39,772 bases of DNA. Origin: a virus. The notes beneath the pieces are model-generated. The model had not been told where the DNA came from. It searched no databases and was given only the letters and a program-made list of their open reading frames with translations. Location: IMG/VR virus record IMGVR_UViG_3300048836_001225, positions 1 through 39,772 of that record. One strand, 5' to 3'. Positions 2,614 to 38,720 of this stretch are shown here, piece by piece. Position 1 is the first letter of the stretch, and each line of letters starts with the position of its first letter. The position numbers and the translations under genes are program-made.

Positions 2614-3486
2614 ATGGAATCAAACACCGCGCCGGAGGTCGTAACGACCGAAACAAAAGACCTGATCGTGGTAAAGCAGTTGCCGGAAATCGTCGAGCAG
2701 CTTCACACGATCAAAGCAGAGCTGGAAGCGGAGATCGCGCTTGTCGTGGCAATGCCGTGCAATCTCGATACCGTGGGCGAAATCAAGAAAAAGCGCGCCG
2801 CGCTCAACGCCAGATTCAAGGAGTTCGAGGAACGGCGCAAGGCGGTCAAACAAGCCATTCTCACGCCGTACGACGCGTTTAACAAAGTCTACGAGGACTG
2901 CGTTGCAATGCCGTTCGGAAGCGCGGACGATACGCTAAAGCGGCAAATCGCTACGGTCGAGGACGCGATCAAAGACGGCAAGCGCAAAGAGGTCGAGAGC
3001 TATTTCAACGAGCTTTGCGCGGCGGGCGGCATCGACTTCCTGCGGTTCGAACAGGCGAATATCCGCGTCGGTCTTTCGGACACGGAAACCGCGCTCAAAA
3101 AATCCGCAAAGCAGTTCGTCGAGAACGTCCAGACGGACATGAAGCTGATCGACACGCAGGAACACGCGGCAGAAATCATGGTTGAGTACAAGGACTGTCT
3201 GAACGCCGCCAGCGCGATCCTCAAGGTCAACAATCGCCATAAGGCGTTGGAAGCCGAAAAAGAGCGCATTGCGCAGACGCGCGCCGCCGAGCAATCTCCG
3301 ATGATCCAAAAAGTTGAGGCGGTCATTGCGGAAAGCGCGCCGGAAGTCAAACCTGTGCAACCCGCCGCGACAGTAGACCCTGAACGCAAGTGGGTTGACT
3401 TGCGAATCTACGGGACGATCCAGCAATTTTCAGACCTCAAAAAATTTTTAGTCGAAAGGGGCATGACCTATGCACAGCACCAGTAA
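2614..3486 (+). CDS. DUF1351 family recombination-associated protein
   Basis: This is a mostly helical protein of 290 residues with long charged heptad-like segments (KKRAALNARFKEFEERRKAV; RKEVESYFNELCAAGGIDFL). It matches the DUF1351 family, commonly encoded next to RecT in Gram-positive phages. The start at 2614 is preferred because an AAAGGA motif precedes it and it avoids an overlap with the loader gene that an in-frame ATG at 2566 would need. The gene overlaps recT by 17 bases, indicating coupling. The biochemical role is unknown; an accessory role in single-strand annealing is inferred from neighbourhood. Confidence 0.75.
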   Translation: MESNTAPEVVTTETKDLIVVKQLPEIVEQLHTIKAELEAEIALVVAMPCNLDTVGEIKKKRAALNARFKEFEERRKAVKQAILTPYDAFNKVYEDCVAMPFGSADDTLKRQIATVEDAIKDGKRKEVESYFNELCAAGGIDFLRFEQANIRVGLSDTETALKKSAKQFVENVQTDMKLIDTQEHAAEIMVEYKDCLNAASAILKVNNRHKALEAEKERIAQTRAAEQSPMIQKVEAVIAESAPEVKPVQPAATVDPERKWVDLRIYGTIQQFSDLKKFLVERGMTYAQHQ

Positions 3487-4399
3487 CACCGCGATCCAGA
3501 CGCAGAGCCGCAAGCCGAAGTTTTCCGAGGCGATGGCAACACCGATCTACAAAAACCTCGTCGCATCCACACTGGGCGACGCAGAGGTGGCGCGTCGTTT
3601 CACCGCATCCATCATGTCGGCGGTCGCGCAGACCCCCGCATTGCAGGAATGCACACCCGCAACGATACTGACTGGCGCACTCGTCGGTGAAAGCCTGAAA
3701 CTCTCTCCGTCGCCGCAGCTCGGACAGTTCTACCTTGTGCCGTTCAAGAGCAAGGAGAAACGCGACAAGAACGGGAATGTGATCGAGGAAGCATGCACAA
3801 AAGCACAGTTCATCATCGGCTACAAAGGCTATGTGCAGCTCGCGCTTCGTTCCGGCCAGTATCGCAAACTGAACGTGATCGAAATCCGGCAGGGAGAGCT
3901 GATCTCATACGACCCGCTGAACGAGGACATCAGCGTGTGCATGGTTGAGGACTTTGAGGCACGGGAGAAGCTGCCCGTCATCGGCTACTACGCCATGTTC
4001 GAGTACACCAACGGTTTCCGAAAGGCGGTGTACTGGACGAAAAAGCACATGATGAAGCATGCAGACCAGTATTCGGCGGCGTTCTCTGCGAAAGCCTACG
4101 AGGATATCCAGGCGGGAAAGATTCCCGATTCTGACATGTGGAAATATTCCTCGTTCTGGTACAAGGACTTCGACGATATGGCGAAAAAGACGCTGCTTCG
4201 GCACATCATTTCGCGCTGGGGCATCATGTCAATCGATCTTCAAACCGCCATCGAGCGCGACGAAACCATGATGGATATCGACCGCAAGGGCAACATCGTG
4301 ACCGAAGCGGAAAAGGCTCTCGAAGGTGAGCTGATCGATTCGCTCAACCCCGTGATGAACGGAGAAACCGCAGCCGTCGTTTTCGAAGATGTGAAATAA
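3470..4399 (+). CDS. recT: RecT-family single-strand annealing protein
   Basis: This 309-residue protein carries the RecT family core: ATILTGALVGESLKLSPS, the LGQFYLVPF strand, FIIGYKGYVQLALRSGQYRK and the later WYKDFDDMAKKTLLRHIISR motif. RecT proteins bind single-stranded DNA and anneal homologous strands, supporting recombination-dependent replication and genome circularisation. The usual partner is an exonuclease; here the closest candidate is the MBL-fold protein at 5077-5724. Length and motif order are normal, so the gene looks intact. Confidence 0.95.
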   Translation: MHSTSNTAIQTQSRKPKFSEAMATPIYKNLVASTLGDAEVARRFTASIMSAVAQTPALQECTPATILTGALVGESLKLSPSPQLGQFYLVPFKSKEKRDKNGNVIEEACTKAQFIIGYKGYVQLALRSGQYRKLNVIEIRQGELISYDPLNEDISVCMVEDFEAREKLPVIGYYAMFEYTNGFRKAVYWTKKHMMKHADQYSAAFSAKAYEDIQAGKIPDSDMWKYSSFWYKDFDDMAKKTLLRHIISRWGIMSIDLQTAIERDETMMDIDRKGNIVTEAEKALEGELIDSLNPVMNGETAAVVFEDVK

Positions 4400-4855: not shown

Positions 4856-5080
4856 ATGGCAAAGCCGAAAGTGGAACTTACGCCAGAACAAAAGGCGACG
4901 GAATCCAGAAAGAAACTCGCGGAAAAGTTCGCGAAAAGAGCGAATAAACACAGCATCCAATGCACTATATGCGGCGGGGCAGTAACGCAGAATCAAATTT
5001 TAGCAGGCGACGCTGTTATTGTTATCGGAAACGTTATCAAAGAAACGGCCGTTTGCAAGCAATGCCGGAGCGGGTCATGA
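4856..5080 (+). CDS. Small zinc-ribbon protein
   Basis: This 74-residue protein has a charged helical N-terminus (ELTPEQKATESRKKLAEKFA) and a CxxC...CxxC ribbon (CTICGG, then CKQC). The ATG at 4856 has AAAGGAG at ideal spacing. The stop overlaps the next start (ATGA at 5077-5080), so it is probably coupled to the MBL hydrolase. A small nucleic-acid-binding accessory role is plausible but unproven. Confidence 0.65.
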   Translation: MAKPKVELTPEQKATESRKKLAEKFAKRANKHSIQCTICGGAVTQNQILAGDAVIVIGNVIKETAVCKQCRSGS

Positions 5081-5724
5081 ATATCGACTACACGATAATT
5101 TCCACTGGCTCAAAAGGCAACGCCGTCCTGATCGGTGAAAGCATCATGATCGATTGCGGAGTACCGTTCAAGAGCGTCGCGGCGTACAAGGGCGGGTTGA
5201 GGTTGGTGCTGCTGACACACTCTCACGGCGACCACTTTAACCCGACCACGATTGCGCGGCTCGCATCCGAACGTCCAACGCTTCGGTTCGCATGCGGGGA
5301 ATGGCTTGTGAACGCGCTGGTGCTCGTCGGGGTGAACAAGCATAATATCGACGTTCTTGCCGGAGATCAGCAGTACACATACAAATCAGCCGCTATCACG
5401 CCATTTGAAGTAACGCACGACGTGCCGAATTTCGGATACAAGATTGAGCTGCCGGACGGAGGGAAAGTCCTCTACGTGACCGACGCGGGGAATCTTAACG
5501 GCATCGAGGCGTTGGATTATGACCTGTACATGATCGAGGGCGACTACGACGAGGACGAGATAGACGAGCGAATCAGCGACAAGAAAGCATCCGGCGCGTT
5601 CGTCTACGAACACCGCGTGAAAAAATACCACCTGTCGAAATCGCAGTGCATCGATTTTGTGCTGCGAAACGGCAACGCACAAAGCGAATTTGTGTATCTG
5701 CATCAACATCAGGAGGGGCAGTAA
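5077..5724 (+). CDS. MBL-fold metallohydrolase, probable DNA exonuclease
   Basis: This 215-residue protein starts with TIISTGSKGNAVLIGESIMI and carries the metal motif HxHxDH (THSHGDHF, His48, His50, Asp52, His53), with later DAG and H residues expected of the metallo-beta-lactamase fold. The closest family by eye is YycJ/WalJ-like, which includes DNA exonucleases. Similar proteins sit beside RecT in Listeria-type phages. It is inferred to be the nuclease partner of RecT, producing single-stranded ends. The start is taken at 5077 because it makes a four-base overlap with the upstream gene. The next gene starts one base after its stop. Confidence 0.8.
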   Translation: MNIDYTIISTGSKGNAVLIGESIMIDCGVPFKSVAAYKGGLRLVLLTHSHGDHFNPTTIARLASERPTLRFACGEWLVNALVLVGVNKHNIDVLAGDQQYTYKSAAITPFEVTHDVPNFGYKIELPDGGKVLYVTDAGNLNGIEALDYDLYMIEGDYDEDEIDERISDKKASGAFVYEHRVKKYHLSKSQCIDFVLRNGNAQSEFVYLHQHQEGQ

Positions 5725-5725
5725 C

Positions 5726-6412
5726 ATGTCGAAATATGCATTATTAAGAGGAACACCTACGGATAAACAGCAAAAGTTTATCGAAGCGACACAGCGTATG
5801 GTTGCATTCGGCGGCGGTCGAGGCGCGGGAAAGTCGTGGGGGTTAAGACGATTGGCGGCTCAATTCGCAATCAAAAATGCGGGTTCGCGAGTTCTGGTTG
5901 TTTGCCACGATAAGACGCAGGTCGATCATGGGATAGTGCGTCCGTACTGGCAGGAACTCCATGGCGTTGCGTTTTCCAGCAAGGACGGATATCAATTTTA
6001 CTTCCAGAACGGAAGCACAATTTGGATTGCATTTTGTGAATCGGATCGCGACATTGAAAAGTTCGCGGGAACGGATTTCGATTTGATCTGTGTCAACGAG
6101 GCGCAGGAGTTCACGGAGTATCAACTCACCCAATTACAACATTGCGGGGTAATGAAGCAGCCGCTCGTCAGATTGGGCGTTACCGTTGAGTATTATTCGC
6201 CTGGTTACAAATACCTTAAACGGGTATTTGTAAGCAAAGAATACGATCCAGACGAAAACCCATCGGACTACGAATACATTCCGGCGACGATCAGCGATAA
6301 TACGTTTTTGCTTGCAGAGAACGAGAATTACAAGAAACAACTCGATCTATTGCCGGACGATGTGAGAAAAGCATTTTTATTCGGAGATTGGAATAAGGAG
6401 GACGGAAAATGA
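5726..6412 (+). CDS. Terminase-like ATPase without nuclease domain
   Basis: This 228-residue protein aligns by eye with the ATPase half of the true TerL at 33089-34486. It shares a PTDKQQKFIEATQ adenine-binding-like start, Walker A GGGRGAGKS (residues 29-37), a Walker B-like strand LICVNEAQEFTE, and LPDDVRKAFLFGDWN, where normal TerL enters the nuclease domain. The protein stops ten residues after that point, so the RNase-H-like nuclease is absent. The coupling motif (TCNPGG in the late TerL) reads EYYSPGY. AGGAGG lies upstream. Its place in the early recombination block, directly after the MBL nuclease, argues against a packaging role. The function is unknown; a DNA translocase is possible. 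Confidence 0.8.
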   Translation: MSKYALLRGTPTDKQQKFIEATQRMVAFGGGRGAGKSWGLRRLAAQFAIKNAGSRVLVVCHDKTQVDHGIVRPYWQELHGVAFSSKDGYQFYFQNGSTIWIAFCESDRDIEKFAGTDFDLICVNEAQEFTEYQLTQLQHCGVMKQPLVRLGVTVEYYSPGYKYLKRVFVSKEYDPDENPSDYEYIPATISDNTFLLAENENYKKQLDLLPDDVRKAFLFGDWNKEDGK

Positions 6413-7242
6413 ACGGAATTTTGCAAACCATCAACGCGTTTTTTGAATCGCAGTCGGGCATGTTCTGGCTGATCGTCGTGCTGTTCGCCTTGCTCGTTTT
6501 CGTGAGCGTCGCGCGAGTGGTTGCGGTAGGCAACGTGGACAAGCTGCGCGACAGCCTTTCGGAAGAACGCACGCTGTCGAGCGGCTACAAGGAGCGCATG
6601 GACTACTACGTTACGCGCAACGCCAAGCTGCACACCGACAATGCACAACTCGCCAAGATCGCGGGCGACGCACAGGAGGAAGTCGAGAATATCAAGTACC
6701 GCAACACCAAACTGCTTGGCGCAAACGAAATGCTTGCCGACGCGGTTATGAACAAAATCGAGTTTATCTCTGCAATCGGCATGGCGGCAGAGAGGGCGTG
6801 CAGCACTTGCCAGACGAGAGCGTGCAACGGGTGCGAAATCCGAGCCATGCGCGGCGTTTACCTTGAACCTCAAGCCGAAGAGCCGGATCCGGTTGCCAAG
6901 AATCCCGCCGAGGGATTGCCGTACCGCTCCTGTGCATGGTGTGTTCGCGCTGCAGAGTGTCGCGAGGACGGCGGGTTGGAGTACAACATGCCGCCGATGC
7001 TGAACGAGAATCAGGATATCGACTGCTACAACTTCGCGTTCGATGAAAAGACCGTTCCGCAGGACGAACAGCCGGAAGAGCCGACCGTGTGCGGAACAAG
7101 CTGCCCGACATGCTCCAAGGAAGAAACGTGCGACAAGACCGCCGGAAGCGGATATCAACCAGACGGTCGAGACGGTTGCGCGAACTGGGAGAACTGGAAA
7201 GCCGTCGAGGGTTACGGGATGGTGGAGGACGAAACGCCATGA
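6409..7242 (+). CDS. Membrane-anchored coiled-coil protein with Cys-rich tail
   Basis: In this 277-residue protein one hydrophobic segment (MFWLIVVLFALLVFVSVARV, about residues 18-37) is followed by a charged coiled coil (about 45-115). The tail holds many cysteine pairs: CSTCQTRACNGC, CAWCVRAAEC and CGTSCPTCSKEETC. The layout suggests one membrane anchor with a long soluble part, probably zinc-loaded if cytoplasmic. It overlaps the upstream ATPase gene (ATGA, 6409-6412) and the downstream exported-protein gene (ATGA, 7239-7242). No family is recognised. Confidence 0.65.
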   Translation: MNGILQTINAFFESQSGMFWLIVVLFALLVFVSVARVVAVGNVDKLRDSLSEERTLSSGYKERMDYYVTRNAKLHTDNAQLAKIAGDAQEEVENIKYRNTKLLGANEMLADAVMNKIEFISAIGMAAERACSTCQTRACNGCEIRAMRGVYLEPQAEEPDPVAKNPAEGLPYRSCAWCVRAAECREDGGLEYNMPPMLNENQDIDCYNFAFDEKTVPQDEQPEEPTVCGTSCPTCSKEETCDKTAGSGYQPDGRDGCANWENWKAVEGYGMVEDETP

Positions 7243-8274: not shown

Positions 8275-8454
8275 ATGGCTAAGAAAAAAGAGTTTTGCAT
8301 TTGGGACTTATCGCCATTGCAACTGGAAAACTGGCTTGAACAGCGCATCAAAGCGCAGCGCGGCGTTACTAGCAAGCCGATTCCAAAGAGCGGCGAGAAA
8401 CGGGTTGAGTTTAGACGATACGAAGAACTTCCAGAAGCGAAGAAGGAGGCGTGA
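8275..8454 (+). CDS. Small basic hypothetical protein
   Basis: This is a 59-codon gene with AAGGAG at 8262-8267 and ATG at 8275. The protein runs from MAKKKEFCIWDLSPLQLENW through LEQRIKAQRG to EELPEAKKEA. It is short, charged and probably helical with no known motif. Its tail DNA contains the ribosome binding site (AAGGAGG, 8443-8449) of the resolvase gene, so the two are packed head to tail. Confidence 0.6.
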   Translation: MAKKKEFCIWDLSPLQLENWLEQRIKAQRGVTSKPIPKSGEKRVEFRRYEELPEAKKEA

Positions 8455-8456
8455 GC

Positions 8457-8957
8457 ATGGGAGCATTCAACTGTTTTATAGGCGTTGACGTTGGAAAGAA
8501 CGGAGGGTTCGCAAGCATTGTAGAGGAACCATGGGGAGAGATGTTAGTAAGCGTTTTTCCGTGGGAAGACGGAGACTTTAAAGAACACATGCGAATCATG
8601 AAAATCCAACACGGATCAGAAATCGGAGAACTGTCAATCGCGTTTGTCGAAAAGGTGTCAGCTATGCCGAAACAGGGCGTAACGTCCATGTTCAACTTCG
8701 GGAAGTCTGCGGGGTACATCGAGGGCGTTCTTGCGGCAATCGGCATCCCCTATCAGCTCGTGCCGCCTCAAAAATGGAAGAAGGAGTTCTCGCTCGGAAG
8801 CGACAAAAAGCAATCAATCGCAGTTTGCGAACGTCTATTCCCAAGCGTGAGCCTGTACCGCACCGAAAGATGCACGACCAAGCATGACGGCATGGCAGAA
8901 GCGCTGTTGATCGCAGAGTACGCTAGACGGATTATGAGCCATTCAGGAACGTTATAA
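8457..8957 (+). CDS. RuvC-like Holliday junction resolvase
   Basis: This 166-residue protein with the phage RuvC-like RNase H fold begins CFIGVDVGKNGGFA (Asp11). It has Glu65 in IAFVEKVSAM and the final acidic pair near Asp144 in TKHDGMAEALLIAEY. FNFGKSAGYIEGVLAAIGIP and VPPQKWKK are typical of this group. It should cut branched DNA before packaging. ATG 8457 is preferred over GTG 8451 because AAGGAGG sits seven bases upstream of the ATG. It complements RecT and the MBL nuclease. Confidence 0.85.
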   Translation: MGAFNCFIGVDVGKNGGFASIVEEPWGEMLVSVFPWEDGDFKEHMRIMKIQHGSEIGELSIAFVEKVSAMPKQGVTSMFNFGKSAGYIEGVLAAIGIPYQLVPPQKWKKEFSLGSDKKQSIAVCERLFPSVSLYRTERCTTKHDGMAEALLIAEYARRIMSHSGTL

Positions 8958-16365: not shown

Positions 16366-16560
16366 ATGAACAACGCAATCGCCTTTGTTGACGCGTCTGG
16401 AACATGGATGCGCTGTTGGAACTGCAACCACAGACTTTTCAAAATCACCAAGCAAGATGACCGTGAATGCTGCGTACAAATCGAAATGAAATGTCCGTCA
16501 TGCAAATCCGTGAATCAGATCCATTTTGACAGTGTTACCGCCGACGTTCCCACGCCGTAA
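16366..16560 (+). CDS. Com-like zinc-finger regulatory protein (copy A)
   Basis: In this 64-residue protein the core CWNCNHRLFKI ... IEMKCPSCKSVNQIHF matches the Mu Com zinc finger, which activates translation of mom. AGGAGGAATTT precedes the ATG. The gene is on the plus strand inside a leftward region and overlaps the 3' end of the giant late gene by 26 bases. It shares the pattern CWxCNHxL...EIKCxSCKSxN with the protein at 38186-38398. No mom-type gene is visible, so its target RNA is unknown. Confidence 0.7.
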   Translation: MNNAIAFVDASGTWMRCWNCNHRLFKITKQDDRECCVQIEMKCPSCKSVNQIHFDSVTADVPTP

Positions 16561-19500
16561 GCCCTTCATTCGCAACATCGTTGATTTGCTGCCGGATATC
16601 GTCAATCTTGCGCTTTCTGGCGGGGGTGTCTCTTTCCGTTGCAAGAATCTCGCGTTCCTGCTTGCGCAAGGCGGCAATGTCCTTTTTGTAGTCCTGCAAC
16701 GTCTCGTAACCCTGTTCGTCGGCGGTTTTGAACGAGTTGATGCCGCTCTGTTCGCGTTCGCGTTCAGCTTTGCGGGACAGGGCTTGCGCTTCGTCCATTT
16801 TGTCGTAGAAGCGGCTCACCGCGCCGGACGAGTACAGCGGGTCAGCGACAAACATGCTGGATGCAACATTTCCAACCGTTCGACCAAGACCGCCGGAATC
16901 CTCTGCCGTTGCGCTCGTAAGCACCTGACCGTAGAAGCTGCCGCCGTACTGCTCAATCAGGTAATCAAGCATCATCGGGGAAACCTCAATTCCCATATCG
17001 TACAGGCGCTCGGAAATCGCCTCGCTGATGACGGATGTTTGCGCATTCTTCTGATCCGGCGCGGCTTCATCCTGCATGTACATGGGAACGATATCGCCGT
17101 TGAAGAAGTTTTTGTTCGTGGAGATTGACCGCACCGCCGCCCAGAACGGTTCTGGATCGACTTTGAAGCTGCCGATGATGTTCTCTCCAAGATCGGCAAA
17201 CGCGCTCTCTGCGTCCTCTCCGTCAGCCCACCGCGCGAACCGCTCAACCGTGGAAACGAGCAGAACGCCCATCTGTCTATCCTTCGGCAGTTTGATGAAC
17301 GTCGTCGGGTATCCGTTCGCGTCACGCTTGCCAAGCACGTTCGGAATCAGGTAGTTGTTGTCCTTCGTGTACTCGGTCAAATTTTCGTAATGTGGGTTAT
17401 CGTCGTTGTCGAACAGATAGCGAATCAGCAACCCAAGCGTGGCAAGCGTCATCCCTCGCGCAACCGTCTTGATCGGCTTGTCCGCAATGCGCCGCGCGAA
17501 CTTATCCAAGCCCTGCACGTTTGCGTTGAAGTAGATGCACGCGGAATCAATCGCTTTTGTCGCCGGAGCGGAGCGCGAGAAATTCACTGTAACGTCTGCT
17601 GCCATCTGCGTTGCCTTGCGCCGACCTTCCGGCGTGTCACCGAACTGTCGTATTCCCTCGATGTACTCCGCGAAACGCCACATGTTCTCGGTATAGCCGC
17701 CGACAGCTCCCGCGACTTGTCCAGCCTTGCTCATTGCCTGTTTGAATTTTCCGCGAATAGTCGCGTCAACCCTGCCGATTTGCTGGCTAGAGATAAAGCC
17801 GGACGATTTGCCGCCCATCGCCTGATAGCTCTTCCACAGGTCGCTATTCTTCGCGCGCTCTTCAACGGCACGAGCGACGTTCGCGAACGTGTCAACGGCA
17901 TTGGCTTCGGTATTCACGATGTATGTTCCAGCATCGCGAACAAGGTTGCGAACACCAAACGAGGGGTTGTAGCCAGTGAGTAGATTCTTAATTGGCTTGG
18001 TGATCTTTCGCAGGAACTTCGTCACGCCGTTGACGGCTTTTGAAGTCATCGAAACGTCAGCCGGATTCAGCAAAGAGTTAAACCCATCGTAGATGTCCTG
18101 ATTCACCGACATTGCGATGCGCTCACCGTCGCGCCAGCCGCGAACGATGTACTGTCCGTCTTTGACCTCGGTCGCGCTCTGGATTGCCAGCTCGTCAAAG
18201 GAATGGAAATCAACGTCAGTCGGTTTGCCGCCCGGTTCGGTGATGATCGCGGCATACTCTGACGTTTCACGCACATGCGTTTCAGCGAAGTTGTACATGT
18301 TCTGCACAAGCTCGTTGTACCGCTCCATAGCAACATATCGCTGCACAAGGTCTGCAAGTGACGTGCGGATGTCCTGCACGTCCTTTACAGATCCTTTCGC
18401 CTCGCGGATGATGCTAGGGCTTTGAATCTCGCTGCTCGTCACAACAGGGCGAGAGCCAACGTTTTTCACGTCTACGCGGTGCGTCGGGACGTAATCGGGG
18501 TACTTTGCGGCAAGCTCGTCATAGAGGTATTCGCTCATAAGACCGCCGTCAACCGCCCAAGACTTCATGAAATCAGCCCACCAACGTTTCTGGTTCTCAA
18601 ACGTCTGCGCAAATTCGGGGTGAGCAGCTTCGATTTGTTCAGCCAGAGCCGCGCTTTCCGACGCACTCATGGGGATGGGCTTTCCGTCAGGATCGAGCGT
18701 ATCAGAAGCAAGCACGGGCTTGTTGTCACCAAACCCGCGTTCTTCTAGCGTCATGCGCGATTCGTTGTGCCGCGCAAGCGTGTAAAGCTGATATTCGCCC
18801 CACAGCTCGTCGGGGATATCCTTGAACAGCGAGGCGAAGGAATCTCCGATGGTCGTTCCATTTACGTCTGCAAGGCGGTCATTTAAGATATACTGCGAAA
18901 CGCCGGGGGCAGAACGAACGCCCTGCGCCAAGTCTTCCGAAGTCACCGCTCCAACGGCGATCTTCTTTTGAACGGTACGAGCAAAACGGTCAATACCAGC
19001 GGTGCCGCTCACGATGTACTTCTGCGCAGTTCTCGCGATTTGGCGAATGGCGTTGACGCTCTCTTTCGCGTTCTGGTCAACCGCGTACAGAGTTTCGGGG
19101 CTTGGCTCTTGGTTTGTCGCGGTGGTTTCCGCGCTCGTCTGCGCTGCCGGTGCCGTCTCCGGCGCGTTCTTCGCGGTGGTTTCGGTTTCCGAAGCGCCCT
19201 GTTTTACGTCCGCTTCTGTCGCCGCGATGACCTTTGACAGCGAGTTTGCGGGCTTGTTTTTCTTCACGAATTCTTCTGCGTTCCCCGCGCGCGCCGCACG
19301 CATCTTTTCAGCTGTTGTAACACCCCTATTTTCGGTCTTTGTGCGCAAGTCGAAGATTCGGTCACGCAACTGTTGCGACTGTCCTAGGGCTTCTACGGCG
19401 GCTTCATACTCTGCGCCGGACGTGATGCCCTGTTGCGTCAATTCGTCAATGCGCTGCATGGCATAGGCGAACTGCTTGTAATTCTGGTTGTCGGCGGTAT

Positions 19501-22500
19501 CCGCTGCGGTTTTCTCTGCCATGTATGCGATGTCGTCAGCAAACAGATCGGCGAGAACGGCGTGATGCGCACGCACTTTCTCCATCGATTTTTCAATAGC
19601 GCGTTGCTGCTGTTGCTTCACCGCTGCGTAGGAATCGGTTGCTTTCTGTACGGCGGCGTTATGTTTCGTCGTGGCTTCTTCGACTGTGCCGTATTTCAGG
19701 AGCGATTCACGAGCACGCGAAAACTCTTCCGATGCCGGATCAACGCCGTCCATGCGCAGAAGATCAAGCATGCGTTCCGCTTTCTCGGACGGTTTTACAC
19801 GCTTTTCAAACGCTTGCTGCATCGCGTCCATATCCTGCGCGTGTTGCTTCTCGCCGTTTATGAGCTGTTCCCTGCTCTGGTTGACGTTCTCGACCGCGCT
19901 CTTGTACTCCGCGATCGGCAGAATCGCCTTGTAGCCTTGCGCGATAGCCTGTTCTTTGAACGATTCCGGCATGGAGTTGGCAAACGTTGCAGATACGAGG
20001 ATATCCTGATATTCCGTGTTGTAGTTGCCTGTCTTGCTCATGTATTCAGCCGTGATCCGTGCTTCGTTCATGGACGGTAGCGACAACGCGCCGCCAAGAA
20101 TGCCGACGATGCCGCCCATAAGAGCCTGATTGCCCATTTCTTTCAGGCTGAACGCGTCACTGTTCCATCCTTGCGCGGATGACAACGCCCACGATCCTAC
20201 GTACCCTGCGCCCTCTTCGGTCGCTTCTCCTAAAAACGACGCGGCGAGGTTGATCCATTTTGCTTTAGTCAGCATGCCGGACGCAAGCGTTTTGCCGGAG
20301 CTTTTCGCAATAGCGGCCGACATGTTTTTCCCAAGAACTTTACCCCAAATAGCGTCTGTCTGCCACGATTCAGTAAAGCCCTCAAGAGCGCCCATTACGA
20401 GAGCGTATGTTCTTGCATCGCCCATAGTTGCGCCGCCCTGTGTAGCTTCGTTGTAATATTGCCCGACGGAGTTCAAAATGAACGGAGAAGACTGAACGGT
20501 AAATAGACCCGCTTTCGCGAGTGTCGACACGCCTTTTGACAAGGCGGCGTTATTCGCAGCGGACGCAACGACCGTTCCGGCTTTCGTCGTGCCAAATGCG
20601 CCGCTTACGGCACTTCCGGCAGCGTTGAGTGCATACATTTTCGCGATCTCTGCGCCGATGTCGGTAGCGGCACTGATTCCCTGTGTCGCAAGGCTTTGGT
20701 TCGTTCTGCCGTAGTTGGATAGATTGTTTGTAAACTCCTGAACTTCTTTGGTGAAGTCCCATGTGTCGCTTCTACCGTCAACGACGGAAACCGCCATATC
20801 AGCAAGCCCAACTGCTCCGCTAAGCATTCCGGCGGTGAATTTAGAGGCGATTCCGCCAATGCCTTGATACGCAATCACTTCGTCTATGCTCTTGGCTACG
20901 TCTGGGTTCGACATATAAGAACCGCTGAACCAATCCGTATATTCAGACTGAAATTCAGGCGTCCAAGAATCCCACGTAGCAGCGGCCTGTTCCGGCGTTG
21001 CGCCGCTTTTCAATGCTTCGACTTCGACGTAGTAATTCCGCGCGGATTCTGTCGGGTCAAGAAGATTTGCATATCCGGCGGTTCTGATCGCCTGATCGAG
21101 CTGGTAATTGCTCATGATATCTTCGGACGTGATGCGTTTCCGCGCGATTCCGATTAAATCCTTCATGTCCTGCGCTTCTGCGTCGCCTACGGGCTTCTTA
21201 AAATTCAGCGTGGTTGGATCCATATAGCTCTTGCCAAGAATATCAGCAAGCCATTCCTCGTTGCTCATTTCGCCATCCGAGGTCAAGCCCTGCTCGTCCT
21301 CTATGACGGAAATTTCATAGTTCGTAAGCCCCATGTCAGCCAGCGCGGTCTTCGCCGCGTTCAGGCTGTCGGGGTCAACGTTCTTGCCGTCGTACTTGAT
21401 GTACGACTTATATGCTTTTGTCGCGGAATCTTTCGATACCGTGGAAAATGCGTCCTTTTTGTACGCGTCAACGATATTCTGCTGAAACCACTCGGCGTTT
21501 TTGCGATGCTCTTTCCATCGTTCGGATGCCGCAGTCGCTTGCGTGACGATATCGGATGCGGCGGATTCTCCCCGCTCCTTGCCGCCGTAGCGGATTGCGA
21601 GAGCGTTTTCGAGGAAACTCTTTGGTGTAGTGGCGTCCTTTTTCTGATGATCTGCATTGATTGTTCCAAACGCCGCCTTGATCGCGTCGCGCTGCGTTTT
21701 GTTTTCCGCGCCGCTGTTCATATCCATGAGGTAGTTCTTGGCTTGCGTCACATGCTTGAAGTCAACGCCGCCGTCGTACATGCCCTGCATGATCGCAATC
21801 GGGTCTGCGTTCCCGCTCAATGCAGAATCGACATACGCTTTCGCCGTCGCCTTGTCAACGATTCCCGCATACGCGTCAGCTGTGCGCTGCGCTTCCATCG
21901 CGTCAGCATACTCGCCAAGCGTGGTCGGTGCGCCTTTAGCCGCGGACGTAGCGTTATCAACGATCTTCAACGAGCGGAACTGCCGTTCCAATTTCGTGTT
22001 ATATTGATTCAAAAAATCGTCATACGTGACGGTAATGTCATTTGAGCCTGCGGCTTTGTTCTCGGAGTTGATAGCCTTAATACGCGCCTCGCGGTACGCC
22101 TCGTTCGAACTGTAGTTTTTCGGGTCAAGTTCATCGGCCGTTTTCGCGGAACTCGTTTTCATGAGCGCAGCAACGTCAGCCCATTCGGGCTGTTCCAGAA
22201 GATTATAGAATGCGTTCTCCCAAGCATCCGTTCCGACCTGTTCGCTGATCGGCGTTTGGTCTTTCGGCTTAGCAATAGGGTCTGAACCAAACCCAACGCC
22301 AGACTTGGAATCCATCACGGGACTGTCGTATTTTGCGCTGCTGTTCTCTATGCCACGATTCGTTTTCATCGAGAAAACTTCCGTTCCAACAGCGATATAG
22401 AAGTCCTGAATACGGTTCTGCGTAGCTATGCGTTCCTCATAAGGCGTGGTAAAGTCGGACAGTTTGTCGGTCGGAGGAAGCCCCTGGTTCTTCAACTGCT

Positions 22501-23038
22501 CGTCGGTATAGCTGTCGGAGTACGACTGCTCCAGCGCAAGCGGCATGATCCCCTTTACCTTGCGCGCCTGATCTTCGGTCGTGTATTCGTACTTCCATGT
22601 TTTCTTGAAAGCGTCGGTGATGTAGCTCTTTGCTTGGTCATCAAAATTATACGACGTGCCATCTCCGTACCACTCCGTATAATCGTTCATGTATTTTGCG
22701 AGATATTTTAGCGGAGGAAGACCGTCTTGTGCAAGCGTATTATTAACGCCGCCAGACGAATAAGCCCTCTCAATCAGAGAGGGAAGCTGCCCGGCAGAAC
22801 GGCGCGATACGTCGGCTAAATTGTCCTTATAAAGCGACGAAATATCGGACTGGAATCTTTTTCTGATCCAGTCCGCTTGTCCTTGGCTAATGTCTATATT
22901 TTGACCATTGACGGAGTATCTGTATAGCGGAGTGTTGTACGGGTCTTTCGTGGAAGAAAGACCCGTAACCATAAGGCTGCTAGATTTTTTGTTCTGCTGC
23001 GGAGGCGTAATCCCCGTAATCATGAGAGAATTGCTCAT
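16535..23038 (-). CDS. Giant internal virion (ejection-type) protein with LPD38-like region
   Basis: This protein has 2167 residues from ATG 23038 (an in-frame GTG at 23044 is less likely, since AGAGGTG lies just before the ATG). The N-terminus repeats NSLMITGITP and SSLMVTGLSS. Hydrophobic segments near 740-770 and 800-920 alternate with long coiled stretches (about 1050-1200). The region from about 1690 (GYNPSFGVRNLVRDAGTYIV; GYTENMWRFAEYIEGIRQFG; LLIRYLFDNDDNPHYENLTE) resembles the LPD38 domain of large polyvalent proteins. Such proteins are carried in the head and ejected with DNA by podoviruses. No lytic transglycosylase or protease motif is evident. It is the last gene of the late operon. 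Confidence 0.75.
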   Translation of the reverse strand: MSNSLMITGITPPQQNKKSSSLMVTGLSSTKDPYNTPLYRYSVNGQNIDISQGQADWIRKRFQSDISSLYKDNLADVSRRSAGQLPSLIERAYSSGGVNNTLAQDGLPPLKYLAKYMNDYTEWYGDGTSYNFDDQAKSYITDAFKKTWKYEYTTEDQARKVKGIMPLALEQSYSDSYTDEQLKNQGLPPTDKLSDFTTPYEERIATQNRIQDFYIAVGTEVFSMKTNRGIENSSAKYDSPVMDSKSGVGFGSDPIAKPKDQTPISEQVGTDAWENAFYNLLEQPEWADVAALMKTSSAKTADELDPKNYSSNEAYREARIKAINSENKAAGSNDITVTYDDFLNQYNTKLERQFRSLKIVDNATSAAKGAPTTLGEYADAMEAQRTADAYAGIVDKATAKAYVDSALSGNADPIAIMQGMYDGGVDFKHVTQAKNYLMDMNSGAENKTQRDAIKAAFGTINADHQKKDATTPKSFLENALAIRYGGKERGESAASDIVTQATAASERWKEHRKNAEWFQQNIVDAYKKDAFSTVSKDSATKAYKSYIKYDGKNVDPDSLNAAKTALADMGLTNYEISVIEDEQGLTSDGEMSNEEWLADILGKSYMDPTTLNFKKPVGDAEAQDMKDLIGIARKRITSEDIMSNYQLDQAIRTAGYANLLDPTESARNYYVEVEALKSGATPEQAAATWDSWTPEFQSEYTDWFSGSYMSNPDVAKSIDEVIAYQGIGGIASKFTAGMLSGAVGLADMAVSVVDGRSDTWDFTKEVQEFTNNLSNYGRTNQSLATQGISAATDIGAEIAKMYALNAAGSAVSGAFGTTKAGTVVASAANNAALSKGVSTLAKAGLFTVQSSPFILNSVGQYYNEATQGGATMGDARTYALVMGALEGFTESWQTDAIWGKVLGKNMSAAIAKSSGKTLASGMLTKAKWINLAASFLGEATEEGAGYVGSWALSSAQGWNSDAFSLKEMGNQALMGGIVGILGGALSLPSMNEARITAEYMSKTGNYNTEYQDILVSATFANSMPESFKEQAIAQGYKAILPIAEYKSAVENVNQSREQLINGEKQHAQDMDAMQQAFEKRVKPSEKAERMLDLLRMDGVDPASEEFSRARESLLKYGTVEEATTKHNAAVQKATDSYAAVKQQQQRAIEKSMEKVRAHHAVLADLFADDIAYMAEKTAADTADNQNYKQFAYAMQRIDELTQQGITSGAEYEAAVEALGQSQQLRDRIFDLRTKTENRGVTTAEKMRAARAGNAEEFVKKNKPANSLSKVIAATEADVKQGASETETTAKNAPETAPAAQTSAETTATNQEPSPETLYAVDQNAKESVNAIRQIARTAQKYIVSGTAGIDRFARTVQKKIAVGAVTSEDLAQGVRSAPGVSQYILNDRLADVNGTTIGDSFASLFKDIPDELWGEYQLYTLARHNESRMTLEERGFGDNKPVLASDTLDPDGKPIPMSASESAALAEQIEAAHPEFAQTFENQKRWWADFMKSWAVDGGLMSEYLYDELAAKYPDYVPTHRVDVKNVGSRPVVTSSEIQSPSIIREAKGSVKDVQDIRTSLADLVQRYVAMERYNELVQNMYNFAETHVRETSEYAAIITEPGGKPTDVDFHSFDELAIQSATEVKDGQYIVRGWRDGERIAMSVNQDIYDGFNSLLNPADVSMTSKAVNGVTKFLRKITKPIKNLLTGYNPSFGVRNLVRDAGTYIVNTEANAVDTFANVARAVEERAKNSDLWKSYQAMGGKSSGFISSQQIGRVDATIRGKFKQAMSKAGQVAGAVGGYTENMWRFAEYIEGIRQFGDTPEGRRKATQMAADVTVNFSRSAPATKAIDSACIYFNANVQGLDKFARRIADKPIKTVARGMTLATLGLLIRYLFDNDDNPHYENLTEYTKDNNYLIPNVLGKRDANGYPTTFIKLPKDRQMGVLLVSTVERFARWADGEDAESAFADLGENIIGSFKVDPEPFWAAVRSISTNKNFFNGDIVPMYMQDEAAPDQKNAQTSVISEAISERLYDMGIEVSPMMLDYLIEQYGGSFYGQVLTSATAEDSGGLGRTVGNVASSMFVADPLYSSGAVSRFYDKMDEAQALSRKAEREREQSGINSFKTADEQGYETLQDYKKDIAALRKQEREILATERDTPARKRKIDDIRQQINDVANEGLTAWERRR

Positions 23039-23053
23039 ACGCACCTCTTTGTT

Positions 23054-31274: not shown

Positions 31275-33074
31275 CTATTGTGCCGCTTGTCCTTGCGCCA
31301 AAAGCGAATCAGACTGTGAAAGCGACTTCCTGTATCGCTCCGTCTTCTGCTTTTCCTCCGAAAGCTGTTGACCAAGCATCGCCGCTTGCTGCTGCGCCAT
31401 TAAAAGCCCCTGTTTTTGCGCTCTCGCAAGATTTTCAAGCAACAATTCCTTCTCGTTGCCGTCCATCTGCAAGCCCTCAAGCATTTGCATCGGGTCAACA
31501 GGCGCTCCGGCTGCCGCAAGCGTTTTCATCATTTCCATCCACGTTGTATTGTGCTGGATCATGGAATACTGCGTCTGACGTGCCGTTCGAATCGTGACGT
31601 ACCGTTCAATTGGAATGCCGTCTTCCATCCACTGTTTGAGGCTTCGGCTGTCAAACGGGTACGCTTTCTTGACACCGTTGTAGGTGATCCCGATTTGCCG
31701 CTGTTGCATATCGCATCCGCGCATCGTTTCAATGAGCATGCGAATCGCTTCTTGGAACGCCGAGTGAATCGAGCGCCCTTCCATGCGGCTGCGCTTCGTA
31801 GCCATCTCCTGCAAGGCAGTAATCGCGCCCGTGGCGGTAACACCGCCTCCGGCCTGTCCGCGCGTCATGTCGTTCGCGCCGCTCTCCTGCTTGATCATGT
31901 TTCTAAGGTCGGCCATGTAAGCGAAAACGTGCGACGGTAAAGGCTGCGTTTCTTGCCACTGCGCCACGGCTTGCGGGTTTCCAGTTACCGGGATGACCTC
32001 GTTTGCGTAGTCTCTTATATCGTCCAAAGAATCTATCGTGTCACGCTGCACCAAAAGGCGAGGTCTGGATGCTCTGTAGGCGTTGAGCAGGATAATCTGC
32101 TCCATCTTGTCTGAATATCGGTTTGCCTCTTTGAACAGATCGACAATACCGAATCCGAGCGGGTTGCCTTTGAGCCGATAAAGCCGCCCGACAACGAACG
32201 GGTATTTTCCGTGCTCGTAATATCCGTCAGGGCTTTCGTCGCTGATCGCGCTGTTGAACAGGATTTGACCGCCCGCCATAAGCACAAAGTGAATCCTGTA
32301 CCGCTCCGCTTTCGCGTCGTACATACGAATCCATGCTTCAACCAACCTCACGAACTGGCGCTTGTTCGGAATCATCGTGTTCCCGTACTCGTCGTGTTCT
32401 TCGGACAGCATGTCGGAATCCCCGCCGATGAACTGCGCAAAATCAGGGTATCTCTGCCAGAACCAATCCCGCGGCATACGCTCAAACTTGAAGATCGCGC
32501 GTCCGTCCTGAATATTCGGGCTTTGCGGGTCGCACATCCAGTTTTTGTTCGAAACGTGCCGGATATACGTTCCGCCTACATTGTCCATATCAGGGTCATA
32601 CCCGACTTCAAGCGGAGACCACCCGTCTACGAGCAAATCGAGCGTGAAGGAATCGTATTCGCCCGCCCATCCGCAAGCATCCAAATCCTGCCAGATCGCG
32701 CGGGTCAACACTTTCGACAGAATGTCCAATCCGTCCAGTTCGATATCCGGCTCAATGACCGCTGTCGGAAAGTCCTCGGACAGATCCGCTTTCAAGTTTT
32801 CGATGGTTGACGTGATGATTGGGGTGCTTGGCTTCGGCGCGTTTTCCGTTGTTCCGCTTGTGTCCGTCATGCCCTTCCAGTGATCACCGCGGTACATGGC
32901 CGCATTGTCGTCGATGCGCTCCCACTCTTTCTTGAAATCGTCCGCGTACTCCTTAAACAGCGTCATCAGCGGTTCGGCAAGCTCTTTGCATTTCCCCGGT
33001 GTAGGCACGCAGTTCGGCAAAGCATCCCAAATCTGCTGCATCGTCGATTTATTGCTTACGGTAACAGTTGCCAT
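31275..33074 (-). CDS. Portal protein
   Basis: This 599-residue protein lies directly after terL. Podovirus-type portal features include MTLFKEYADDFKKEWERIDD, MYRGDHWKGM, WSPLEVGYDPDMDNV, LEQ-type helices and the long stem helix near DKMEQIILLNAYRASRPRLL. A MARGQAGGGVTATGAITALQ-like turn (here MTRGQAGGGVTATGAITALQ) precedes a coiled C-terminus (EKELLLENLARAQKQGLLMA). A dodecameric ring at the vertex is expected, with the C-terminal helices possibly forming a barrel. Confidence 0.88.
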   Translation of the reverse strand: MATVTVSNKSTMQQIWDALPNCVPTPGKCKELAEPLMTLFKEYADDFKKEWERIDDNAAMYRGDHWKGMTDTSGTTENAPKPSTPIITSTIENLKADLSEDFPTAVIEPDIELDGLDILSKVLTRAIWQDLDACGWAGEYDSFTLDLLVDGWSPLEVGYDPDMDNVGGTYIRHVSNKNWMCDPQSPNIQDGRAIFKFERMPRDWFWQRYPDFAQFIGGDSDMLSEEHDEYGNTMIPNKRQFVRLVEAWIRMYDAKAERYRIHFVLMAGGQILFNSAISDESPDGYYEHGKYPFVVGRLYRLKGNPLGFGIVDLFKEANRYSDKMEQIILLNAYRASRPRLLVQRDTIDSLDDIRDYANEVIPVTGNPQAVAQWQETQPLPSHVFAYMADLRNMIKQESGANDMTRGQAGGGVTATGAITALQEMATKRSRMEGRSIHSAFQEAIRMLIETMRGCDMQQRQIGITYNGVKKAYPFDSRSLKQWMEDGIPIERYVTIRTARQTQYSMIQHNTTWMEMMKTLAAAGAPVDPMQMLEGLQMDGNEKELLLENLARAQKQGLLMAQQQAAMLGQQLSEEKQKTERYRKSLSQSDSLLAQGQAAQ

Positions 33075-33088
33075 ATTGCGTACTCACC

Positions 33089-34486
33089 TCATTTCAGGTT
33101 GTAAAAACTAGTTGAACGCGGAACGCTCCTGCGCTGGTTGAATGGGTCAATGTATATGTCTCCCTGCTGTTGTGGTATCTGTCGAACCGTCTTTGGGGAA
33201 GGTCTTGACATCAGCCCGTATCTCAACGCCTCCAGCGCATGGTCTTCGCAATGCCCAGAAACGTCTTCGATGTTGTTTTCGTCAACCGTCGCGTTCGGAA
33301 ACGTCCGAATCAGGTTGTGACAATTCTCCATGATCCGCAACCACGGTTCACCGTCCGGCGCAATTGCAAGATTTTCTCTCACGCGCTGCCAACCGATCAC
33401 GCGGCTGTTGTCTGCCTTTAAAACTGGAATCCCGTTCCGCATCAGCACTTCCGCGATATTCTCGCCGCCGCTGATATCTTTCATCCCTCGGCGCTGCCAT
33501 GCATCCGGCGATAGATACGTTCCTGATATCTGCTCGTCCGAACCTGTCATCTGCCTTACAAGCCGCGCATAGTCCGACGAGTTCATTTCCCTCGCATACA
33601 GTTCCCTGTACACGTAAATGTGCCGATCCGGCGATACTGCAAACCACAACGTGCACCACGGGTCGTTATAGCCCCAGTCCATTGCCCTGAACTTTCGCCA
33701 TTCTGTCGGGATAAGCATCTCCGGCACAACGTGCAAATCGCGTCGGAAGTCCGAAAAATACTGTCCAAGAACAACGTCCCAATCGCCTTCGAGGTACGCC
33801 CTTCTCAAATGCTCCGGCAACCCCGCCAGCGACTTAACGTAATCAGGGTCAACGTGCGGATTATCATTCAGCTTTGCTCGGATGAACACGTAATCGTCCG
33901 GGTTCTCCGGCAATATTTCCATGCCCTCAAACATGATCGGTTCTTGTATGAAATTCCGATCAACGAAAAGGCGCTTGATGTACTCATGCCCTACGCCGCC
34001 CGGGTTGCACGTATAGTAGCAGCGAGGCTTGAAATCCTTTCGCGATGTACGGTTGCTCGTCGCAATTTTCCGCATCTGCATTTCGGTGAAGTTCGTCGCT
34101 TCCTCGAACCCGATGACTTCGTATTCCTGCCCCTGATACTGCATCCAATCGTCTTCGGAATCGCAATACCCAAGCTTGATGTAGCTGCCGTTCGGAAACG
34201 TGAAAATCCGCTCGTCCTTGCTGTACGTCGCAATCCCCGTTGGCACTAATTCCTCAATCAGCGGCTTGATATGATTGCCAAGCAGTTCAGGAAACGACCG
34301 CCTCAAAAGCAGCATCCGAATCCCGCCGTATGGTGCAATCCCCAACCCGACCATCTTCCGACGCATTGCCCAGCTTTTCCCGCCTCCGCGAGCGCCTCCA
34401 TATGCGGTGTGCCGCGCGGTGCTTGCAAAAAACTCTCGCTGCTTCTCTGTTGGCTTACCTTGCAGCTTCGCTATCGCGTCGGTCAT
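33089..34486 (-). CDS. terL: Terminase large subunit
   Basis: This 465-residue protein has an N-terminal ATPase: Walker A GGARGGGKS (residues 30-38), Walker B EVIGFEEATNF and coupling motif CYYTCNPGG. The C-terminal RNase-H-like nuclease has the first Asp in FRAMDWGYNDPWCTLW and the last acidic residue in GHCEDHALEALRYGL. It packages DNA into the prohead through the portal and cuts it. The complete nuclease contrasts with the shortened ATPase at 5726-6412. GGAG lies upstream of the start. Confidence 0.95.
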   Translation of the reverse strand: MTDAIAKLQGKPTEKQREFFASTARHTAYGGARGGGKSWAMRRKMVGLGIAPYGGIRMLLLRRSFPELLGNHIKPLIEELVPTGIATYSKDERIFTFPNGSYIKLGYCDSEDDWMQYQGQEYEVIGFEEATNFTEMQMRKIATSNRTSRKDFKPRCYYTCNPGGVGHEYIKRLFVDRNFIQEPIMFEGMEILPENPDDYVFIRAKLNDNPHVDPDYVKSLAGLPEHLRRAYLEGDWDVVLGQYFSDFRRDLHVVPEMLIPTEWRKFRAMDWGYNDPWCTLWFAVSPDRHIYVYRELYAREMNSSDYARLVRQMTGSDEQISGTYLSPDAWQRRGMKDISGGENIAEVLMRNGIPVLKADNSRVIGWQRVRENLAIAPDGEPWLRIMENCHNLIRTFPNATVDENNIEDVSGHCEDHALEALRYGLMSRPSPKTVRQIPQQQGDIYIDPFNQRRSVPRSTSFYNLK

Positions 34487-34504
34487 AAATTCTCCGTCTT
34501 CCAG

Positions 34505-34672
34505 CTACTCAATCTGCTCATGCTCTGTCTCACGCTTGCAAACGTAGCAGTATGCGTGTTTAATGTGCCCGACGTTAGTATGACGTTTCGCTTTCGTCAT
34601 AACCGTCTTAACTCCGCACTCGCTGCACTTGAATAACCGCGTTTGAACCGTTCTCTGGTCTCGCTTATTCAC
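34505..34672 (-). CDS. Small zinc-ribbon protein upstream of terL
   Basis: This is a 55-residue frame from GTG 34672 to TAG 34505: VNKRDQRTVQTRLFKCSECG, then a basic middle (TKAKRHTNVGHIKHAYCYVC) and KRETEHEQIE. Two CxxC pairs and a GHIKH motif form a zinc ribbon found next to terminase genes in related phages. GGAG precedes the start, and the stop lies 18 bases before the terL ATG. A link with packaging is suggested only by position. Confidence 0.7.
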   Translation of the reverse strand: MNKRDQRTVQTRLFKCSECGVKTVMTKAKRHTNVGHIKHAYCYVCKRETEHEQIE

Positions 34673-34711
34673 GCCCTACTCCGTTTTGACGTCCGGCGCA
34701 ATAGGATTGTT

Positions 34712-34984
34712 TCAGCGCGTCGTTCTGAACGTTTCGATTGTTTTCCAATCATCGAGAAGGTACGCTACGGATTCAACAGGAAGGTAAGTTGTCGTTCCGT
34801 GGATTTCTGTAAAAATAAGCGTCGTTCGAACATCGTTGATGCCAAACCGCTCAATTTCCGCATGCATGCTCTTCGTAACGTCTGGATCGTCCAGAATTTT
34901 GATGTAATCCCACGCTTCGGCGCGCTCTTTTCTGTTTCCGATTTCGTCAAACGGTGTCCTGAAAATTTTCAAAACCAATGCCAT
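34712..34984 (-). CDS. Hypothetical late protein
   Basis: This 90-residue protein (MALVLKIFRTPFDEIGNRKE, WDYIKILDDPDVTKSMHAEI, TLIFTEIHGTTTYLPVESVA) has a mixed alpha/beta composition and no cysteines. It lies between terS and terL in the late operon. The ribosome binding site is weak (ACAGGT). The role is not recognised. Confidence 0.5.
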   Translation of the reverse strand: MALVLKIFRTPFDEIGNRKERAEAWDYIKILDDPDVTKSMHAEIERFGINDVRTTLIFTEIHGTTTYLPVESVAYLLDDWKTIETFRTTR

Positions 34985-35211
34985 GTCTTTTTACCTGTCT
35001 TTCTTTCTGTCTGTTTATTTCCAAGCTCTCGCTTTGGATTCTGTAGTTGTGTTTGTAGTGGTACGTTATAGTATCTGACACCCACGCCCGGGGCGCGCAT
35101 GGTACCGCCCGGGTTTCGATTCAGATTCGCGCCCAATCGAAAACTCCACCCCCTATACAAAAAAACAAGGCTGGCATTTCAACCGAGGGAATCCGGGGTT
35201 GAAATGGCTGG
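34985..35211 (-). other. Gene-free gap after terS with two strong hairpins
   Basis: No convincing gene is seen. CATTTCAACC (35175-35184) and GGTTGAAATG (35197-35206) form a perfect 10-bp stem just after the terS stop. A U-rich run follows on the minus strand only nine bases later, so any termination would be partial. A second, GC-rich imperfect palindrome covers 35087-35113 (CCCGGGGCG with CGCCCGGG). One or both may serve as processing, attenuation or packaging signals. Confidence 0.5.
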
Positions 35212-35823
35212 CTATGTGAATAACTCGCCTATCTCTTTGGGCGTGTAACCCACAATCTCCACCTTGCGCGTGTTATCCTGCTCCACTTTGGCAGCAATGC
35301 CGAGACGCGAGAGGCGCAGCTGTACAACCTTGCTGTCGATCATGCCCGAATCTGCCGCGTCGGTGATCTCCTCGATGATTCGAAGTCTCACGCGCGCGAG
35401 AGCCGCACGGATTTGTTTCTGTGCCTCCTCATACTCCTTATCAGCATCTAAAGAGCTATCTATATCGCTCTTATCCGTAGATGTGCTAGATACGCTAGAA
35501 CGATCTAGAGAGACCGTATCTTGAGTGGTATCACCATCTAGAGCTAGATCGCTACTAAGAGATACGCTCTCACTCTCTCCGTAGGTTCTCTCTCTCTCGT
35601 AGCTATCTGTGGCTTCGGAGATCAGGCGCATGAGATGGCCGTAAGAGATGCCAAGAGCGAGTGCAAGACCCTCTGTAGACGGCCATTTGCCGTATGTGTG
35701 CATTGCGCCGGATTTGAGAGTAACCATGTTTTCTTCACGGCTCTGCTTGCAGTCATCCAGGTATTTCTGACAAATGCGCTCAACCTCGGCTGGATCGGTG
35801 TATTTCGGTGGTCTCGTCCTCAT
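35212..35823 (-). CDS. terS: Terminase small subunit
   Basis: This 203-residue protein (start MRTRPPKYTDPAEVERICQK) is followed by a helix-turn-helix-like segment (PSTEGLALALGISYGHLMRL) typical of small terminases that recognise the packaging site. A Ser/Asp-rich linker (about 85-135) and a C-terminal helical oligomerisation region (QKQIRAALARVRLRIIEEIT) follow. The ATG at 35823 has AAAGGAGATG upstream. A longer frame reaching 35982 is rejected because it would cross a terminator hairpin and the promoter. The linker DNA holds a repeat cluster at 35486-35568. Confidence 0.8.
   Translation of the reverse strand: MRTRPPKYTDPAEVERICQKYLDDCKQSREENMVTLKSGAMHTYGKWPSTEGLALALGISYGHLMRLISEATDSYERERTYGESESVSLSSDLALDGDTTQDTVSLDRSSVSSTSTDKSDIDSSLDADKEYEEAQKQIRAALARVRLRIIEEITDAADSGMIDSKVVQLRLSRLGIAAKVEQDNTRKVEIVGYTPKEIGELFT
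35486..35568. repeat. CTAGA repeat cluster inside terS, candidate pac site
   Basis: CTAGA occurs at 35486, 35495, 35505, 35538 and 35544. The last two lie in a palindrome ATCTAG-AG-CTAGAT (35536-35549). AGATACGCT is repeated at 35488-35496 and 35560-35568. The cluster coincides with the low-complexity linker of TerS. In headful phages such as P22 the packaging-start site lies within the small terminase gene, so this is a candidate pac. No experimental support can be seen. Confidence 0.4.
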
Positions 35824-35871
35824 ACCGTCCTGTTCATCTCCTTTCGCTCTCTCTCGTACTTTTAAGCAATA

Positions 35872-35932
35872 AAAAACACACCGTAGTTCTCTAGCTCTCG
35901 TGAAAGAGCTATAGACGGTGTGTCTATTTGCG
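35872..35932 (-). terminator. Strong terminator hairpin in the late-operon leader
   Basis: On the minus strand ACACACCGT pairs with ACGGTGTGT (outer 9 bp), and an inner stem TAGCTCT/AGAGCTA pairs around a short loop. A TTTTTT run follows immediately. It stands between the predicted late promoter (35978-36007) and terS (start 35823), so late transcripts must pass through it. This is the layout of lambda PR'-tR' under Q control. Confidence 0.75.
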
Positions 35933-35977
35933 GAGGCATCGTTTACGAAGCTCTTAACTCCGTAACTCCACGGTGTG

Positions 35978-36007
35978 AACATAACACAATACTGGTGGCG
36001 TTGTCAC
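35978..36007 (-). promoter_or_regulatory. Predicted late promoter
   Basis: On the minus strand GTGACA (36007-36002) and TATGTT (35983-35978) are 18 bases apart, and a TG precedes the -10 as in extended promoters. The expected start near 35971 lies about 40 bases before the leader terminator. The weak -10 and long spacer suggest dependence on an activator. Confidence 0.5.
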
Positions 36008-36021
36008 TGCTGAAGCAAACG

Positions 36022-36050
36022 CGGTTTGTATCGGTTTGTATCGGTTTGTG
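36022..36050. repeat. Three 10-bp direct repeats upstream of the late promoter
   Basis: CGGTTTGTAT at 36022-36031 and 36032-36041 is followed by CGGTTTGTG at 36042-36050. The unit repeats once per helical turn, lying about 50 to 80 bases upstream of the late start site. Same-face repeats suit an activator binding in series. They also lie upstream of the opposite promoter at 36131. Confidence 0.6.
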
Positions 36051-36130
36051 TGTGTCTGCGTATGTTGTTCATAAAAAGTTCACAAATCATCAGAGGCTCT
36101 TCTATATAACACGATTTGAAATATTTTTGC

Positions 36131-36159
36131 TTGACAACTTCACTTCGTGTTGATATTCT
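36131..36159 (+). promoter_or_regulatory. Strong rightward promoter of the right arm
   Basis: TTGACA at 36131-36136 and TATTCT at 36154-36159 are 17 bases apart with TG before the -10 (TGATATTCT). It is close to a perfect extended SigA promoter and drives the operon that starts at 36211. Its strength without an obvious overlapping operator suggests expression also in the lysogen. Confidence 0.75.
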
Positions 36160-36210
36160 GAACACAGAACGAAATACACCGTTCGAAATTTCAAAGGAGG
36201 GCAAGACCCC

Positions 36211-37113: not shown

Positions 37114-37205
37114 ACGACCATTCCGGCGCGCTGGCAATACTGGCAATCGCGATTGAAGCGATAGGGCTGATGGTGTGCCTCGCTTACATCGCAGGGATCA
37201 TTTGA
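37110..37205 (+). CDS. 31-residue membrane micro-protein
   Basis: An ATGA overlap (37110-37113) with the preceding gene starts a 31-codon frame: MNDHSGALAILAIAIEAIGL then MVCLAYIAGII. Nearly all of it is one hydrophobic helix. GGAGAACAGG precedes the ATG. Coupling and composition make a real micro-protein likely. The role is unknown. Confidence 0.5.
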   Translation: MNDHSGALAILAIAIEAIGLMVCLAYIAGII

Positions 37206-38631: not shown

Positions 38632-38634
38632 CGA

Positions 38635-38685: not shown

Positions 38686-38720
38686 AAAAAATTAAACATT
38701 GAGAAGGAGATCAAAACCAA

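Follow-up and report, generated by a model that had tools for sequence, protein, structure and literature searches.

Our study revealed, in the early operon of a gut-type bacterial virus, a 228-residue protein (P0001) that matches the ATPase half of large terminases (TerL) as a diverged homologue, and which we tentatively read as a packaging ATPase captured and converted into an accessory of recombination that binds ATP without translocating DNA. The window, that is, the whole stretch of DNA analysed, spans the 39,772 bp of an IMG/VR virus record from a temperate phage of the P22-portal type, which encodes a small terminase, a TerL, a portal, a major head protein, an antirepressor, an endolysin and a serine integrase. 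The features discussed below are collected in Table 1.

The homology was evident from pairwise alignment, profiles and predicted structure. P0001 aligned with the phage's own TerL over residues 6-237 of the latter at 34% identity (E 5e-38), in keeping with an earlier note on this DNA, which had matched it to the TerL ATPase half. Identity to related TerL ATPase domains was 32-40%, and no known TerL was more than 40% identical. Profile matches were to phrog_979 (4e-31) and Pfam Terminase_6N (3e-6). The Walker A motif GGGRGAGKS is intact, and the segment LPDDVRKAFLFGDW is the counterpart of LPEHLRRAYLEGDW in TerL, both as previously described. An AlphaFold2 model built from a 71-row alignment, with three phage-record rows left out, reached a pLDDT of 90.9 and a pTM of 0.88, although the rows were TerLs and the model is therefore biased towards the terminase fold. 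All of the top 28 PDB matches to this model were large terminases, the best being Sf6 gp2 (TMq 0.73), and the ATPase domains of T4 gp17, P74-26 and D6E were also among them. P0001 thus shares with TerL (Terminase_6N PF03237, phrog_979; Sf6 gp2 4idh, T4 gp17 2o0h, P74-26 TerL 4znl) the ATPase fold, the Walker A motif, the adenine-side Gln, the catalytic Glu and the lid segment. Unlike TerL, it has no nuclease domain, Walker B acid or coupling motif, and its gene lies in a recombination operon rather than beside the small terminase (TerS) and portal genes.

The protein was said to stop where the nuclease should begin, and this was borne out: P0001 ends in the linker, its alignment reaching TerL residue 237, whereas the nuclease of TerL is matched by Pfam from residue 268 (below Pfam's cut-off) and has its first acid at D270. 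When 233 TerL nuclease halves were searched against the window, they matched the true TerL, plus three weak stray matches near 9.5-10.5 kb, and no convincing second nuclease half was present. The true TerL, about 27 kb away on the minus strand, carries the nuclease acids D270, E295 and D408, as conserved in its relatives. As TerL is intact and a second nuclease half is absent, a frameshifted or split TerL was ruled out as the origin of P0001, which is a separate, nuclease-less ATPase gene. A split or frameshifted TerL has been described in the Staphylococcus warneri prophage vB_G30_01 (PMC11512304), and this, like the short PHROG terminase profiles (phrog_3717), offers a terminase ORF of ATPase length. 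In contrast to that prophage, the phage studied here has a complete TerL, P0001 is followed by no nuclease half and 27 kb separate its gene from the packaging genes. A recent duplication of the phage's own TerL was ruled out by the tree, in which P0001 had a terminal branch of 5.2 changes per column (median, 0.47) and fell outside the well-supported groups holding that TerL. Given the quick tree method and the long branch, the claim is limited to P0001 not being the sister of its own TerL.

Despite this divergence, P0001 retained 42 of the 64 near-invariant TerL columns (at least 90% conserved among 73 TerLs), whereas residue shuffles of P0001 kept a mean of 3.7 and a maximum of 12, and each true TerL keeps at least 57. 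On this measure P0001 is under constraint and not decaying, constraint being judged by resemblance to TerL and not by dN/dS because an orthologue was not found; decay had been raised in the earlier note as what would undo its reading. The frame runs for 228 codons without an internal stop, and when the bases of the gene were shuffled 20,000 times it never remained open. Third-position G+C was 0.51, lower than in the neighbouring genes (0.69 and 0.72). The net charge of P0001 is -3, compared to a mean of +3.9 for TerL ATPase domains, most of which are less acidic, and this predicted charge does not favour direct DNA binding.

The residues on which a packaging motor depends were kept only in part. 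P0001 retains Q15, R32, K36, S37 and the catalytic Glu, E125, but position 124, the Walker B acid (Asp or Glu in 73/73 TerLs), is Asn. The coupling motif was reported as TCNPGG replaced by EYYSPGY; the loss stands, but TCNPGG aligns with TVEYYS, the reported pairing with EYYSPGY being offset by two residues, and N155-P156 (Asn and Pro each in 73/73 TerLs) become E-Y. Further replacements are R60 to C and Q114 to A, at positions that are Arg and Gln, respectively, in all 73 TerLs, and N69-H70 to G-I (conserved in 72/73 and 71/73); the Arg at alignment column 168 (73/73) is deleted. The C-terminal RNase H-like nuclease domain, which moves DNA, is absent. In T4 gp17, packaging is lost even when Asp and Glu are merely exchanged in Walker B, a reversed DE-ED mutant shows tighter ATP binding but no hydrolysis, coupling-motif mutants lose both ATPase and packaging, and splitting the protein at the linker leaves ATPase activity while translocation is lost (PMC3012670). 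ATP binding by P0001 is most likely, given that it retains Walker A, Q15, R32 and the catalytic Glu, whereas loss of the Walker B acid, coupling motif, invariant Args and nuclease/translocation domain would leave hydrolysis slow or nil and translocation absent. Judged from the residues kept and lost together with the T4 gp17 mutant effects, P0001 may plausibly bind ATP, but it is doubtful that it hydrolyses ATP and unlikely that it translocates DNA. The proposal of the earlier note that P0001 is a reused motor was therefore not upheld, since P0001 lacks the DNA-moving domain and has lost or altered the Walker B acid, invariant Arg and Gln residues and the coupling motif; a use in recombination, which it also proposed, is plausible from the slot that the gene occupies.

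Table 1. Positions in the window of P0001, its motifs, the neighbouring early genes and the terminase genes
Feature	Position	Strand	Basis
DUF1351 protein, recombination module	2614..3486	+	
RecT single-strand annealing protein	3470..4399	+	Pfam PF03837 5e-39
MBL-fold hydrolase (phrog_392), motif THSHGDH	5077..5724	+	Profile matches
P0001 ribosome-binding site AGGAGG, 9 nt ahead of ATG	5711..5716	+	Read from sequence
P0001, 228-aa terminase-type ATPase domain without nuclease half	5726..6412	+	ORF, alignment, profile matches, predicted fold
P0001 Walker A region AFGGGRGAGKSWG (approximate); K36 and R32 kept	5801..5839	+	
P0001 Walker B region LICVNEAQE (approximate); acid replaced by Asn, catalytic Glu kept	6086..6112	+	
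P0001 degenerate coupling motif TVEYYSPG (approximate); TCNPGGxG in TerL	6182..6205	+	
277-aa protein, N-terminal membrane segment, many Cys; start overlaps P0001 stop (ATGA)	6409..7242	+	
Holliday junction resolvase	8451..8957	+	phrog_1770 2e-30
True full-length TerL	33089..34486	-	Profile matches, conserved nuclease acids
Small terminase subunit (GP3_package)	35212..35982	-	Pfam match

The early operon runs in the order DUF6291, DnaC-like loader, DUF1351, RecT, MBL-fold hydrolase, P0001 and membrane Cys-rich protein, past which come one more protein of secreted or membrane type and, further on, a Holliday junction resolvase. P0001 is thus flanked by the MBL hydrolase and a protein with a membrane segment, and is remote from the packaging genes, much as had been noted. 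Its ATG lies 1 nt past the MBL stop and its own stop overlaps the next start. The MBL-fold hydrolase is likely to be the nuclease partner of RecT. The 277-aa protein had no family match in Pfam or PHROG, and no relatives of it were found. DUF1351-RecT-MBL is common to other phages, the closest being 57-60% identical in RecT and 48-54% in MBL, and the same gene order is found in Polaribacter phage Freya_1, Faecalibacterium phage Roos and the IMG/VR contigs L269-L271. In related phages with this module the gene directly behind MBL usually encodes HNHc_6 (L269 and L270) or a NinB/Orf recombination mediator (L254 and L255), whereas here it encodes P0001, which therefore occupies a usual recombination slot, an argument based on a handful of phages. 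P0001 itself is not a conserved part of the RecT-MBL module: it was absent from five related IMG/VR records carrying the module, and scans with MBL and RecT recovered RecT-MBL phages, none of which had P0001. The MBL-ATPase neighbourhood, which the earlier note had proposed to seek in other genomes, was accordingly not found in RecT-MBL records.

No ATPase-only relative of P0001 was found in about 800 Clostridia genomes, in IMG/VR matches or in phage or plasmid records. The genome searches took in one host family (103 genomes), the order (396) and the class (391), these sets overlapping and each rank being sampled. They yielded a single strong match in a short internal frame (G417), which was rejected as a relative, being a prophage deletion remnant in the normal TerS-TerL position. 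In this remnant (L253:8530-9303, G417 C5), the TerS-TerL pair is normal except that the TerL sequence passes, after DYVFIPAR, into an unrelated gene from downstream. Short pieces in G839 and G827 resemble TerLs truncated at the edge of a contig; a few distant terminases were also matched weakly (E above 1e-10), in frames of 316-376 aa. Peptide scans of IMG/VR and genome contigs returned no relative, and degenerate DNA patterns for GGGRGAGKSW and VNEAQEFTEY gave no matches in IMG/VR, these IMG/VR scans being pattern-based. In an IMG/VR alignment scan, the best 80 of at least 600 matches were all full-length TerLs or cut by the contig end. With pattern-based scans, the best matches of an alignment scan and sampled genomes as the basis, rare relatives may have escaped notice. 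Among 50,697 phage records, 234 matched P0001, in exactly one place each, and among 72,556 plasmids there were 5 matches, the annotated ones being terminases; neither set held an ATPase-only relative. The top BFVD matches were mostly full-length or longer TerLs, the shorter ones being A0A7G5AYQ1, a protein of ATPase length (244 aa) with 13% identity to P0001, together with a handful of 327-385 aa. A literature search for a second or ATPase-only terminase turned up only a frameshifted TerL. As no second example was found, P0001 is an orphan, its function is only a guess and the functional claim is weak.

Sequence, fold and tree show P0001 to be the ATPase domain of a TerL of the same broad terminase clade, which has lost its nuclease half and diverged under a new constraint, and whose gene now lies in the early recombination operon, right behind RecT-MBL. 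Under the reading that we favour, it would bind ATP, hydrolyse it slowly or not at all and translocate no DNA. Its role would be to assist the RecT-MBL exonuclease module in an ATP-dependent manner, perhaps by keeping the module at DNA ends or recruiting it to them, and it would act in the slot held by the HNHc_6 or NinB/Orf recombination gene in other phages. More generally, a motor-stripped terminase ATPase may serve as an ATP-binding, non-motor recombination factor (or as a terminase decoy), a possibility that we hold with low confidence; no description of such a use of the terminase fold was found in the open-access literature searched. Terminases are known as packaging motors, and a clear case of this kind would show the exaptation of a packaging engine and provide a natural minimal ATP-binding domain for study. 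As a single unreplicated example, P0001 carries limited weight.

Retention of the fold and structural residues alongside loss of the motor residues is also the pattern expected of a dominant-negative subunit or decoy. P0001 could on that account be a dead, early-made ATPase that mimics a terminase, binding TerS, the portal, the TerL ring or a TerL-recognising host sensor such as an Avs protein, with the effect of delaying its own phage's packaging, poisoning that of a competing phage or blunting a defence system. An Avs3-bound phage terminase (8dgc_E) was among the fold-search matches to P0001. However, the gene lies among recombination genes and not with morons or packaging genes, and PADLOC assigned P0001 no family except a weak P-loop match, and we consider such mimicry unlikely, if worth keeping in view. 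A different view of the orphan status of P0001, which has no same-size relative in the databases searched, is that it is a TerL fragment left by inter-phage recombination, whose frame has stayed open fortuitously or because its translation is coupled to that of the next gene; truncated TerL remnants do exist, G417 being one. Stops would be expected in so old a neutral relic, yet after very long divergence the frame is intact, the ribosome-binding site is good and 42/64 residues are kept, which makes this origin distinctly unlikely.

The intact Walker A and catalytic Glu, together with the known HK97-like cis mechanism that works without a trans Arg finger (PMC7617512), would permit an active, DNA-stimulated ATPase motor in recombination with altered catalytic residues. 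Against this, the Walker B acid has become Asn, the coupling motif is lost and there is no translocation domain, and we regard an active motor as improbable. An assembly artefact, in which a terminase fragment was joined to the early operon, is very improbable: although one contig only carries the P0001 region, the identical record L006 (IMGVR_UViG_3300048835_000720) covering just positions 32852-39772 of the window, both junctions of the gene are seamless, and no known TerL exceeds 40% identity to P0001. Set beside these alternatives, an ATP-binding accessory of recombination remains the account that we prefer.

Furthermore, several observations concern the phage as a whole. The closest relatives of its true TerL share about 50-63% identity with it and come from viral contigs of rumen and gut and from prophages in metagenome genomes of Clostridia, several of which are named Christensenella or Christensenellaceae. 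This TerL has an insert of approximately 11 residues (the IMFEGMEILP region) before ENPDDY that is absent from its relatives. L006 is 100% identical to the window over their shared part and extends 2,963 bp further, so the 3' end of the window is not the end of the phage. The serine integrase ORF (37354-38199, plus strand) encodes 281 aa, shorter than usual for large serine integrases, and may be truncated or run on in a different frame. Positions 16535-23044 on the minus strand, which is the structural-gene strand, form one ORF of 2,169 aa.
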